A DNA stretch of 64,000 nt from Steroidobacteraceae bacterium (GTDB lineage: Bacteria; Pseudomonadota; Gammaproteobacteria; Steroidobacterales; Steroidobacteraceae): positions 1 through 64,000 of the forward strand of contig JAPZRU010000005.1 of NCBI GenBank assembly GCA_027531255.1, written 5' to 3'. The position numbers were made by a program, and so were the translations under genes. Every line of letters starts with the position of its first letter. The stretch's first letter is position 1. Below are positions 103-2,496 of the stretch, piece by piece. Under the pieces are notes generated by a model. That model was not told where the DNA came from. It was given only the letters and a program-made list of their open reading frames with translations, and searched no databases.

Positions 103-2496
103 TCAGTTCGCGCCGAAGTTCACGCGGAACTGGGCACCGAAGTAGCGGTCGGCGTCGCGCGGGATCTGCAGGCGCGGCGCGCCGCCGGGGCCGCCCGTGG
201 ACACCAGCGCCGCGAAGCTCTCGTCCGTGAGGTTCCGGCCGACCAGCGTCAGGCGGTACCGGTCGTCCTTCGACGCGAACGCGATGCTCAGGTCGACGGT
301 CGAGAACGAGGGAATCAGCGTGATCGGATTCTCGTTCAGGTCCGCGAACTGGTCGTCGGTGTACGCGTACAGCAGGCTCGGCACGACGTCGATCGTCGCC
401 AGCTCGAAGCGGTACTCGACGCCCACCGAGCCCTTGATCTCCGGCGCGAGCGGCAGCTGCGTGCCGTTGCGCACCGGCGGCGTCGTGATGCCCGGCTGGA
501 GGAAGAACCGGTCGACCTCGGCCTTCGTGTACGACAGGCCGCCGGTGATCGACAGCGCGTCGGTCGGCCGCGCCAGGAAGTCGATCTCCGCGCCCTGGCT
601 CGACACCTCGCCCGCGTTCTGCAGCGTCGTGATGGTGACGCCGTTCAGCACCAGGAAGTTGTTGGCCTGGAAGTTGTCGTACTTCGCGTCGAAGACCGCG
701 GCGTTCAGCAGCAGCCGGCCGCCGGCGAGCGTCGACTTGAAGCCGATCTCGAACGAGTCCGCGATCTCGGCCTCGAGCGGCCGGGCGTCGCGCTGGCGCA
801 TGTTGAAGAACACGTTGAACGCCGGGCCCTTGTACCCGCGCGCGTAGGTCGCGTACGCCATGAAGTCGTCGGTGACGTCGAACTGCAGGCCGGCCCGGCC
901 CGACACCTCGCTCGCGTCGTTCTCGCCCGTGAGCAGGCGCGTGTTGCCGGCGCACACCACGCCGCCGACCGTGCACTCGGGATCGGTGACGTCGCGGATG
1001 CCCGGGCCCGGCCGCGGCGAGAACGTGTAGCGGTGGTTGAAGCTGAGGTCGTCCTGCGTCCAGCGCAGGCCGGCGATCACGCGCCAGCGGTCGCTGACGT
1101 TGAACGTGCCGTCCGCGAACAGCGCGAGGTTGTCGAAGTCGGCGTCGAAGGTCGCGACCGCGAACTGGTCCTGGATCACCGACGCCGCCGGCGTGCACGG
1201 CGCGAGCCCGGTCGCGTCGACCGGCAGCGTCGTGGAACGGCAAACCACGGTGTTGCGCTGGAACAGGCGCTGCGCCTCGGTGCGCGAGTAGAACACGCCC
1301 GCGACGTACTCGAGGAAGCCGCCCGCCGGCGAGGCGAGGCGAAGCTCCTGCGAGATGGTCTCCTGGGTCTGCGGGCCGAAGTCGTGCAGCTGCGCGAAGG
1401 CGTTGCCGACGTACGGCGCGGTCTGGTCGAGCCAGTCGCCCTCGCGGAACTCGGTGGCGTCCCACGTGCGATAGGCGGTGATCGAGGTCAGCGTGTAGTC
1501 GCCGAACGAGACGTCCGCCTGCGCGGACAGGCCCCATGCCTCCTCCTCCGAGCGCATCTCCTGGTTCTGCCGCACGGTGCGGCTGTCCTCGCCGGTCGCG
1601 AAATCGGTGCCCGAGAGCAGCTGGCGCAGCGCCGCGGCGTTCGCGCCGGCGGGGATCGGACCGACGATCTCGACGCAGCAGTTGTCGTCGGACTTGCGGT
1701 AGTCGCCGATGAAGGTCAGGCGCACGTTGTCGGTCGGGTCGGCGACCCAGATGCTGCGAAGGCCCCACCGGTCGTAGCCGTTGGTCGGCCCGCCGGCGGG
1801 CGTCGCGCTGACGTTGTCGAGGTAGCCGTCGAACTGGCCCCAGGTCACCGTCGTGCGGGTACGCAGGGTGTCCGACAGCGGCGCGTCGAGCGCGGCCTTC
1901 ACGCGCTTCTCGTCGTCCTCGAAGTACTGCAGGTCGACGTAGCCGCCGAATTCGTCGCCCGGCATCTTCGAGACCACGTTGACGACGCCGGCGGACGCGT
2001 TCTTGCCGAACAGCGTGCCCTGCGGGCCGCGCAGCACCTCGACGCGGTCCACGTCGTAGAGGTCGCCGAAGGCCTCGCCCGCCGACGACAGCACCACGCC
2101 GTCCAGCACGAACGCGACGCTCGGCTGCGCGGCGATCGCGAAGTTGATCGTGCCGACGCCACGCAGGAACAGCGACTGGTTCAGCGAGGTGTTGGTCTTG
2201 CGGATGTTGAGCGACGGCACGAGCGTCTTCAGCGACTCGGCGTTGAACCCGCCCATCTTGTCGACCACGTCGCCGCTGACGACGCTGATCGCGATCGGAA
2301 CTTCCTGCAGGCGCTGCTCGCGCTTCTGCGCGGTCACGACGATCTCGCCCAGGTTCTCCATCCCGCCGGTGTCGGAACCGGCGGGCGCCTGCTGCGCGGA
2401 GGCCGCGCCGGTCGCGAGCACGCCGGCGACGGCGAGCGCGAGCGCGCGAGCGCGGCGACCCGGGACGGGACGGGAATCGGAGATGCGAAGGGTCAT
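103..2496 (-). CDS. TonB-dependent outer-membrane receptor (candidate sulfoquinovoside receptor)
   Basis: This 797-residue outer-membrane receptor takes up a ligand using TonB energy. A signal peptide covers about residues 1-34, ending near ASA-Q. A TonB box (EIVVTAQKR) lies at about 51-59. The plug domain carries the VEVLRGPQGTLFGKN signature, and a barrel of TonB-receptor length follows. The start at 2496 is chosen because an AGGAG lies about 8 bases upstream and the signal peptide begins there; the open frame upstream has no receptor features. It is transcribed away from cysJ. The ligand cannot be read from sequence. A 16-base motif shared with the sulfosugar operon promoter lies about 265 bases upstream (2761-2776), so uptake of sulfoquinovose or its glycerol glycoside is my inference. 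Confidence 0.93.
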   Translation of the reverse strand: MTLRISDSRPVPGRRARALALAVAGVLATGAASAQQAPAGSDTGGMENLGEIVVTAQKREQRLQEVPIAISVVSGDVVDKMGGFNAESLKTLVPSLNIRKTNTSLNQSLFLRGVGTINFAIAAQPSVAFVLDGVVLSSAGEAFGDLYDVDRVEVLRGPQGTLFGKNASAGVVNVVSKMPGDEFGGYVDLQYFEDDEKRVKAALDAPLSDTLRTRTTVTWGQFDGYLDNVSATPAGGPTNGYDRWGLRSIWVADPTDNVRLTFIGDYRKSDDNCCVEIVGPIPAGANAAALRQLLSGTDFATGEDSRTVRQNQEMRSEEEAWGLSAQADVSFGDYTLTSITAYRTWDATEFREGDWLDQTAPYVGNAFAQLHDFGPQTQETISQELRLASPAGGFLEYVAGVFYSRTEAQRLFQRNTVVCRSTTLPVDATGLAPCTPAASVIQDQFAVATFDADFDNLALFADGTFNVSDRWRVIAGLRWTQDDLSFNHRYTFSPRPGPGIRDVTDPECTVGGVVCAGNTRLLTGENDASEVSGRAGLQFDVTDDFMAYATYARGYKGPAFNVFFNMRQRDARPLEAEIADSFEIGFKSTLAGGRLLLNAAVFDAKYDNFQANNFLVLNGVTITTLQNAGEVSSQGAEIDFLARPTDALSITGGLSYTKAEVDRFFLQPGITTPPVRNGTQLPLAPEIKGSVGVEYRFELATIDVVPSLLYAYTDDQFADLNENPITLIPSFSTVDLSIAFASKDDRYRLTLVGRNLTDESFAALVSTGGPGGAPRLQIPRDADRYFGAQFRVNFGAN

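Follow-up and report, generated by a model that had tools for sequence, protein, structure and literature searches.

The first 64,000 nucleotides of contig JAPZRU010000005.1 (assembly GCA_027531255.1 of a Steroidobacteraceae bacterium; this whole stretch is referred to as the window) encode a TonB-dependent receptor which, as judged from sequence comparison, is very probably the outer-membrane component of a locus of the carbohydrate utilization type with TonB-dependent receptor (CUT), and which would serve in the active uptake of sulfoquinovose (SQ) and/or its glycoside sulfoquinovosyl glycerol. By computation, the receptor family was assigned, an operator shared with SQ catabolic genes was found, the receptor was associated with SQ genes across genomes as well as within its own clade, and a partner among the tripartite ATP-independent periplasmic (TRAP) transporters was located. 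A candidate receptor for a sulfosugar or its glycoside had already been proposed from the letters of the window (the sequence-only reading), and this proposal is supported by the joint occurrence of receptor and SQ genes in different genomes and by the comparative link through the operator.

Receptor family

The open reading frame of the receptor is complete, with the ATG at 2496 and the stop codon at 103-105 on the minus strand. The N-terminus of the encoded protein of 797 residues resembles a signal peptide and is followed by EIVVTA at residues 51-56, which we take to be a TonB box-like motif. The N-terminal Plug domain (57.9 bits, cut-off 23.9) and the C-terminal TonB_dep_Rec_b-barrel domain (156.7 bits, cut-off 27) of Pfam bear out the earlier call of a TonB-dependent receptor, as do the AlphaFold2 model and its fold matches. 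The model, a structure prediction that the sequence-only reading had suggested, was built from a 40-sequence alignment and reached a mean predicted local distance difference test score (pLDDT) of 86.5 and a predicted template modelling score (pTM) of 0.86; a fold search with it recovered generic siderophore receptors and other TonB receptors and no hint of the ligand. As the genome of 4.2 Mb contains 70 matches to the barrel family, 69 of them over the cut-off, a receptor beside any given gene is unsurprising on its own. The window itself encodes a second TonB-dependent receptor with plug and barrel (48982-52155, 1057 residues).

Association with sulfoquinovose genes

Orthologues of the receptor (threshold E<=1e-100) were sought in a set of 59 relatives that includes the window genome and in an even class draw of 369 genomes, where scoring was limited to two first-look candidates per genome. 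Among the 59 relatives the receptor orthologue was found in six, SuyB, the large subunit of sulfolactate sulfo-lyase, in six (E<=1e-60) and both together in five (Fisher p 7e-6), in line with the co-occurrence with suyAB that had been suggested as a check; the class draw likewise yielded six receptor-bearing genomes, two of which (G000 and G041) are shared with the relatives. When the two samples are combined, all 10 distinct receptor-bearing genomes possess SQ genes, within ~10 kb of the receptor in seven, ~9-17 kb away in G018 and on another contig in G006, and in G407, G312 and G200 the receptor stands within the SQ cluster and is accompanied by exact operators. Two candidate counter-examples were dismissed. 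G403, with no SQ genes within 10 kb, has an SQ locus at a distance of ~37 kb, and its receptor bears an exact operator. G039, with the receptor and no suyB, carries TauD-family, aldo/keto reductase and Gfo/Idh/MocA genes beside it, the last being 35% identical to those of GH188 type, a set that fits an SQ dioxygenase (sulfo-SDO)-like cluster.

Individual loci were named after a scan of genome contigs with five receptors, the best 80 being kept and their flanks searched for marker genes. At an identity of ~40% or more, SQ genes are present in the flank of 27/32 of these loci; four of the five exceptions (L058, L059, L078 and L106) are contig fragments with little flank, and the fifth, L061, has an exact operator and part of a gene of the sodium:solute symporter family (SSF) at its edge, with no SQ enzyme in view. 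At 35-39% identity SQ genes occur in 6/24 loci, another monooxygenase type in 14/24 and neither in 4/24, and below 35% the corresponding figures are 4/24, 1/24 and 19/24. The SQ-linked loci total 36, or 37/80 with L095 (GH188), and SQ genes lie within ~6 kb of the receptor in all 36 counted loci and within 3 kb in 30; the SMOC marker was counted in 23 loci. Orthologues that mostly lack sulfosugar genes, the pattern named at the outset as speaking against a sulfosugar receptor, are thus not what was found, with SQ genes in 10/10 genomes and 27/32 loci.

The SQ gene sets that accompany the receptor clade are of four kinds, hybrid sulfo-EMP (Embden-Meyerhof-Parnas), sulfo-ED-like (Entner-Doudoroff), sulfo-SMO-like (SQ monooxygenase) and sulfo-SDO-like, which makes the receptor the constant part. 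Hybrid sulfo-EMP sets are those of the window, G024 and G041. Sphingomonadales loci combine a sulfoquinovosidase (SQase) of GH31 (YihQ) or GH188 type with an aldo/keto reductase and a luciferase-family monooxygenase, and most also with a LacI regulator; for the monooxygenase of L051 the best solved matches are 7olf and 7oh2, presumably SmoC. Loci of Alteromonadales and similar bacteria hold GntR, a GH31 enzyme of the window type, TRAP or SSF genes and a TauD-family gene with an aldo/keto reductase, the TauD-family gene being by context an SQ dioxygenase. Sulfo-ED-like sets were recognized in G018, G006, L103, L107 and L126; in these sets the lactonase and the aldolase were not identified and the dehydratase of G018 is ambiguous, so that this label depends on the SQase and SuyAB in the neighbourhood. 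The SQase families of the loci match solved enzymes, GH31 to the solved SQase 5ohy at 4e-285 and Gfo/Idh/MocA at 3e-110 to 8qc2, which is SqgA/GH188 in passages of PMC10755693. Homologues of GH188 were found in 12/96 stretches searched, ten at >=62% identity (query included) and two at ~35%. Glycerol genes accompany the SQ cluster in the window and in several other loci. In G018, the operator-bearing receptor of L026 stands beside genes for a major facilitator superfamily (MFS) transporter, Gfo/Idh/MocA, a 3-keto-disaccharide hydrolase, a GMC oxidoreductase and gluconate 2-dehydrogenase subunit 3 (3555-8995), which together point to the cleavage of a glycoside by an oxidoreductive route.

An assignment of the Pseudomonas-type loci (15/80) to the sulfo-SMO kind was rejected, as the solved-structure search with L082 shows another monooxygenase family; because the 15 form one gene cluster, all were removed from the SQ count. 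In these loci (L079-L086, L088, L090, L091, L104, L122, L123 and L129) a sub-clade of the receptor is found beside LacI and the other flavin monooxygenase, which in L082 resembles NtaA/YtnJ/DszA; genes for an aldo/keto reductase and an NMT1-type binding protein are close to it there. The substrate of this sub-clade is possibly another organosulfur compound.

A shared operator

Only two exact matches to TCTTNTANAAGA exist in the genome, TCTTCTAGAAGA upstream of the receptor and TCTTATAGAAGA between gntR and suyA. Both have TCTT(C/A)TAGAAGAGTTG in common, each reading toward its downstream gene, and the operator is palindromic with a 24-bp consensus. The motif noticed by the sequence-only reading therefore stands, by its two exact copies in the genome and by its recurrence in all GntR loci of a survey of 85 loci, in which the 550 bases preceding the receptor match were examined for sites with no more than one mismatch. 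In this survey the operator precedes the receptor in 12/12 loci with GntR, in 0/40 with LacI (L084, whose weak GntR match was set aside, being counted here) and in 5/33 with neither in view; among these five, the GntR gene of G018 and G006 is located in another part of the genome. One further locus with GntR, L126, was left out of this count for its truncated receptor and has a one-mismatch site, giving 13/13 if included. The contrast between GntR and LacI loci is strong (Fisher p=4.8e-12, related loci not being independent), and letter shuffles predict the operator in 0.29 of the 12 GntR loci. In 24 stretches chosen for GntR or the operator (463 kb), 37 exact sites were counted, distributed over 20 stretches, and the reversed motif was found 0 times.

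In the window alone, the first copy lies ~270 bp from the receptor start and from the cysJ start alike and is not assigned to either gene; it is the comparison with the relatives which assigns it to the receptor. A genome-wide search with one mismatch showed no enrichment, with 18 places per strand versus 33 for the reversed control, and weight is therefore given only to the exact matches and the cross-genome comparison. Three of the one-mismatch hits, on contig C22, are inside reading frames that overlap TonB-receptor matches. The shared control of a CUT-type locus is thus indicated by a common operator sequence which follows the GntR regulator, and by these comparisons the receptor is placed in the SQ regulon and in the SQ-linked receptor clade.

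Receptor clade

A quick FastTree phylogeny with SH-like support, in which long branches were flagged, was calculated for 102 receptors, without the receptor fragments under 550 residues of L095, L106 and L126. It includes 15 paralogues from the window genome (20 stretches were fetched, five of which gave no usable match), whose surroundings were outside the scan. Labels were set by hand for eleven rows (the window, L022, L024, L026, L023, L049, L135, L136, L137, L138 and L061), of which L026, L023 and L138 count as SQ-linked by SQ genes elsewhere in the genome and L061 through the operator and the partial SSF gene only. All 46 SQ-linked rows fall into one clade of 69 rows (support 100), together with 15 rows of the other-monooxygenase type and eight with no SQ genes in view; outside it are 18 database rows, none SQ-linked, and the 15 paralogues. 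The window receptor belongs to a sub-clade of 40 rows (support 97) which holds 36 of the SQ-linked rows.

Two residues, E349 and R351, occur in 40/40 rows of this sub-clade and in none of the rows outside the 69-row clade or the paralogues; E349 is likewise missing from the remaining 29 rows of that clade, of which 14% have R351. Related clade patterns were observed for H371, D372, N565, N612, R775, R780, K100 in the plug and the cysteine pair C419/C434. In the secondary structure of the model, residues 349-372 are on one hairpin, and residues 780-784 belong to the loop that precedes the final strand. The clade-specific residues may line the ligand-binding site.

Inner-membrane partner

No sugar transporter was found in the examined part of the window, in agreement with the sequence-only reading, which had seen no inner-membrane transporter in the locus. 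The window, however, starts at base 1 of its contig (C17), so that the downstream side of the receptor is the contig end; the C and G runs at 1-95 resemble an assembly artefact. At E<=1e-30 the genome has one match to dctM, 77% identical, in the terminal stretch of contig C28 (L050, its last 3.1 kb), where a DctQ match starts 254 bases from the contig end. By the order and orientation of these TRAP genes, which correspond to an arrangement found behind the receptor in a relative, the C28 end would abut the C17 start, and a candidate TRAP system for SQ or a sulfoquinovoside would follow directly downstream of the receptor. For the locus as a whole, the absence of a transporter thus probably does not hold. 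In G024, whose receptor is 68% identical, gntR, kinase, aldolase, isomerase, GH31, receptor, dctQ, dctM and dctP are arranged on one strand, and receptor, transporter, enzymes and regulator of a CUT-type locus are thereby united on one contig; in G041 three TRAP genes are located between receptor and isomerase.

Proposed uptake route and alternatives

From this we infer the identity of the ligand, its transport and TonB dependence, the action of the repressor, the enzyme activities and the flux through the pathway as follows. In the presence of SQ or a derivative, the GntR/UTRA repressor would leave the operator (consensus CTTATGTCTTATATAAGACATAAG), and receptor and catabolic genes would be expressed together upon its release. 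The receptor would be a high-affinity binder of SQ and/or sulfoquinovosyl glycerol, and TonB energy would drive the passage through the outer membrane to an inner-membrane partner, most plausibly the TRAP system in the window genome and some relatives and SSF or MFS proteins in others. In the cytoplasm, the GH31 enzyme would free SQ and glycerol, whereupon SQ would yield dihydroxyacetone phosphate and sulfolactaldehyde through isomerase, kinase and aldolase, SuyAB would cleave sulfolactate to pyruvate and sulfite, to be exported or reduced, and glycerol would be routed through GlpK and GlpD. The glycerol genes of the window and other loci fit a glyceryl glycoside as the substrate.

Several observations weigh against this route. 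SQ is small enough for porins, and no TonB receptor is known to take part in SQ uptake by the best-known degraders. The nearest solved structures of the receptor are siderophore receptors, with only 13-20% identity in the fold search, and its clade extends to receptors of Pseudomonas and others beside the other flavin monooxygenase as well as to those lacking SQ genes in view. G005 has suyAB, and the receptor was not found there at E<=1e-100. Several pathway names are given by context: the dioxygenase of sulfo-SDO-like loci is assignable to the TauD family only, the sulfo-ED dehydratase of G018 passes the cut-off for L-arabinonate dehydratase (892.6 of 882 bits), and the short-chain dehydrogenase/reductase of G018 is nearest D-xylose dehydrogenase. 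In the window cluster, no sulfolactaldehyde dehydrogenase or reductase was found, the proteins scanned having no aldehyde-dehydrogenase Pfam hit; homologues are encoded elsewhere in the genome, on contigs C35 and C22 among others. Finally, the window GH31 is YicI-like and devoid of the motif of YihQ-type enzymes, and the natural glycoside may therefore differ from plain sulfoquinovosyl glycerol.

This last point leads to the alternative that the receptor, although part of an SQ system, carries another sulfoquinovoside or sulfonated glycan such as a lyso-sulfolipid or an SQ-containing oligosaccharide. Active transport would be most sensible for a bigger ligand, and sulfo-SDO-like loci repeatedly contain a GH31 of the window kind along with the receptor; we nevertheless consider this unlikely in view of the YihQ-type or GH188-type SQases of the sphingomonad relatives and of the glycerol genes beside the cluster in several loci. 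That the receptor imports a different organosulfonate which feeds SuyAB, for example sulfolactate, dihydroxypropanesulfonate or a taurine-like compound, appears quite improbable. Sulfonates are frequent substrates of TRAP systems, the solved matches include an isethionate-binding DctP, and SuyAB adjoins GntR in several loci, but most SQ-linked loci are sulfo-SMO-like or sulfo-SDO-like, with a chemistry that has no C3 sulfonate product, and SQases are encoded in many of the SQ-linked receptor loci.

A siderophore or other iron receptor placed here by chance would agree with the top solved and fold matches, and the best Fur-like match, 12/19 at 2972-2990, is a score which only 3/200 stretches drawn from the window reach. 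This weak match, the only yield of the Fur-box scan, is, however, on the cysJ side, separated from cysJ by ~56 bp and from the receptor start by >470 bp, the siderophore-receptor model TIGR01783 scores 168.1 bits, under its curated cut-off of 223.5, and the link to SQ genes holds in 10/10 genomes; by the model cut-off and the context together, an iron receptor is judged highly unlikely. There is hardly more than a trace of probability that the operator at 2765 controls cysJIG with the receptor as a mere divergent neighbour: its equal distance from both start codons in the window would allow it, but the operator precedes the receptor in eleven other GntR loci as well, and tblastn recovered neither CysJ nor CysI from any of the stretches of the relatives.

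Beyond the window, uptake of SQ and/or sulfoquinovosyl glycerol by this receptor opens the broader view, towards which we lean with some reserve, that a dedicated clade of TonB receptors is a common outer-membrane gate for sulfoquinovosides in Proteobacteria. Such a gate would be portable between at least four kinds of SQ pathway, between TRAP, SSF and MFS transporters and between control by GntR with the 24-bp operator or by LacI, and would recognize its ligand via the conserved residues E349, R351, H371, D372, N612, R775, R780 and K100 of the plug.

Relation to known systems

SQ is a sulfur-containing sugar of plant and algal membranes, the intracellular breakdown of which is well worked out. 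Its production amounts to ~10 billion tons a year (PMC12890257, PMC10755693). A dedicated entry through the outer membrane is unreported in the literature searched: among the papers listed by full-text searches, no title or beginning of an abstract dealt with SQ uptake by way of TonB or TRAP. Subscription papers and supplements lie outside this scope, and a gene cluster drawn in one of them could still depict a receptor of this kind. No such paper having been found, the statement of the sequence-only reading that TonB uptake of sulfoquinovosides is not well described holds for this literature. TonB is not mentioned in the passages of PMC12890257, PMC13372026, PMC9594981 and PMC10755693, the last of which describe SQases across pathways with no word of TonB, receptor, transporter or uptake. 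If the proposed function is true, a receptor clade common to several SQ pathways fills this gap at the point of entry and implies active scavenging at low concentration, TonB-dependent sugar uptake extends to sulfonated sugars, and the receptor gene becomes a pathway-independent genomic marker of SQ users and the scavenging of the sulfolipid sugar.

The closest parallel is the sucrose CUT locus of Xanthomonas campestris, which, according to PMC1790865, like here unites a TonB receptor, an inner-membrane transporter, a degrading enzyme and a regulator, in a genome that is similarly rich in TonB-dependent receptors (72, compared with the 70 barrel matches of the window genome). The X. campestris locus carries sucrose, whereas here a sulfonated sugar would be transported and the receptor clade goes along with several different catabolic gene sets. 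The known SQ clusters of the sulfo-EMP/EMP2, sulfo-ED, sulfo-SMO (ASMO) and sulfo-SDO (ASDO) types (PMC9594981, PMC12890257, in part) match in their enzyme families, namely the SqvD-family isomerase, the YihV-like kinase, the luciferase-family monooxygenase, the TauD-type dioxygenase with aldo/keto reductase and the GH31 and GH188 SQases; unlike here, TonB and TRAP are not mentioned in the passages on these clusters. Homologues of the GH188 NAD-dependent sulfoquinovosidases (PMC10755693, in part) are likewise present in the loci. A local regulator of SQ genes, as here, is CsqR/YihW of the E. coli yih genes (PMC10991401). Unlike E. coli CsqR, the regulator here is of the GntR/UTRA type, or LacI in other loci. 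CsqR is a DeoR-family protein.

The neighbouring gene cluster

Rightward from the receptor follow cysJ, cysI, cysG, an HD-domain fragment and then the sulfosugar cluster, so that the sulfur genes which the sequence-only reading had placed next to the receptor are indeed there (Table 1). The minus-strand arm of the cluster consists of GH31, the SqvD/SftI-family isomerase, the class I aldolase, the PfkB kinase and the GntR/UTRA regulator, and the divergent plus-strand arm of the SuyA-like and SuyB-like proteins, two dehydrogenases, the YeiH-type membrane protein, GlpD and GlpK.

Table 1. Position of the receptor, the operator copies and the neighbouring genes in the window
Feature	Position	Strand	Remark
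TonB-dependent receptor, 797 residues	103..2496	-	candidate SQ/sulfoquinovoside receptor, by domains, model, clade placement and clade-specific residues
Operator copy 1, TCTTCTAGAAGA	2765..2776	-	upstream of receptor, between receptor and cysJ
CysJ-like sulfite reductase flavoprotein	3046..4908	+	neighbour, system membership putative
CysI-like sulfite reductase haemoprotein	4966..6666	+	neighbour
CysG sirohaem synthase	6726..8183	+	neighbour; 572.8 bits, cut-off 400
GH31 glycosidase	8910..11117	-	candidate sulfoquinovosidase, not YihQ type; likely start near 11090
SQ isomerase candidate, SqvD/SftI family	11104..12564	-	PF02952 over cut-off
Class I aldolase (tagatose-bisphosphate aldolase/YihT superfamily)	12569..13624	-	candidate sulfofructose-phosphate aldolase
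PfkB kinase	13621..14520	-	candidate sulfofructose kinase; top solved match YihV 7ag6
GntR/UTRA regulator	14528..15289	-	presumed operator binder
Operator copy 2, TCTTATAGAAGA	15339..15350	+	between gntR and suyA
SuyA-like small subunit	15352..15723	+	SAF domain, marginal score; true start probably more downstream
SuyB-like sulfolactate sulfo-lyase large subunit	15736..16935	+	galactarate/altronate dehydratase superfamily; SuyB by context
Ldh_2 dehydrogenase	17043..18062	+	candidate sulfolactate dehydrogenase (ComC type)
2-hydroxyacid dehydrogenase	18086..19018	+	candidate sulfolactate dehydrogenase (SlcC type, by context)
YeiH-type membrane protein	19070..20095	+	candidate sulfite/sulfate exporter; PF03601 over cut-off
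GlpD-like glycerol-3-phosphate dehydrogenase	20113..21594	+	start approximate
GlpK-like glycerol kinase	21622..23118	+	fits glycerol release from sulfoquinovosyl glycerol

The cluster most likely encodes a hybrid sulfo-EMP pathway ending in the cleavage of sulfolactate. It contains the SqvD/SftI-family isomerase expected of such a cluster, the sole NCBIfam match of which at E<=1e-15 is the sulfoquinovose isomerase NF048012 (268 bits, under the cut-off of 700), and the Ldh_2 protein has L-sulfolactate dehydrogenase NF040650 as its top NCBIfam match (176 bits, cut-off 500); the label is derived from these two, from the YihV-like kinase and from passages of PMC9594981, in which SqvD is a PF02952 isomerase and hybrid sulfo-EMP clusters are known to exist. 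For the kinase the nearest NCBIfam model is ribokinase, under the cut-off, the aldolase is closer to 8tnf and tagatose-bisphosphate aldolase than to YihT, and the YeiH-type protein scores 178 bits with TIGR00698 (cut-off 232.6).

The GH31 enzyme is nearer YicI than YihQ. The CEDW...RLFW motif, presumably the sulfonate-site motif of YihQ-type GH31 enzymes, is absent from it and its seven close relatives, which sets them apart from the YihQ/AtSQase type, and is present in the YihQ-type GH31 enzymes of other loci. Relatives with 53-68% identity recur in SQ loci of the hybrid sulfo-EMP and sulfo-SDO-like kinds, and the enzyme may be a new type of sulfoquinovosidase or act on another sulfoquinovoside.

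The genes cysJ, cysI and cysG stand between the receptor and the SQ cluster (3046-8183), a position that possibly places sulfite reduction beside the source of sulfite; in the stretches from the relatives, CysG has partial matches in L066 and L113. The HD-domain fragment at 8277-8792 (HD_5, 117.7 bits) seems to end abruptly near 8790 and is possibly a decayed HD-GYP gene.

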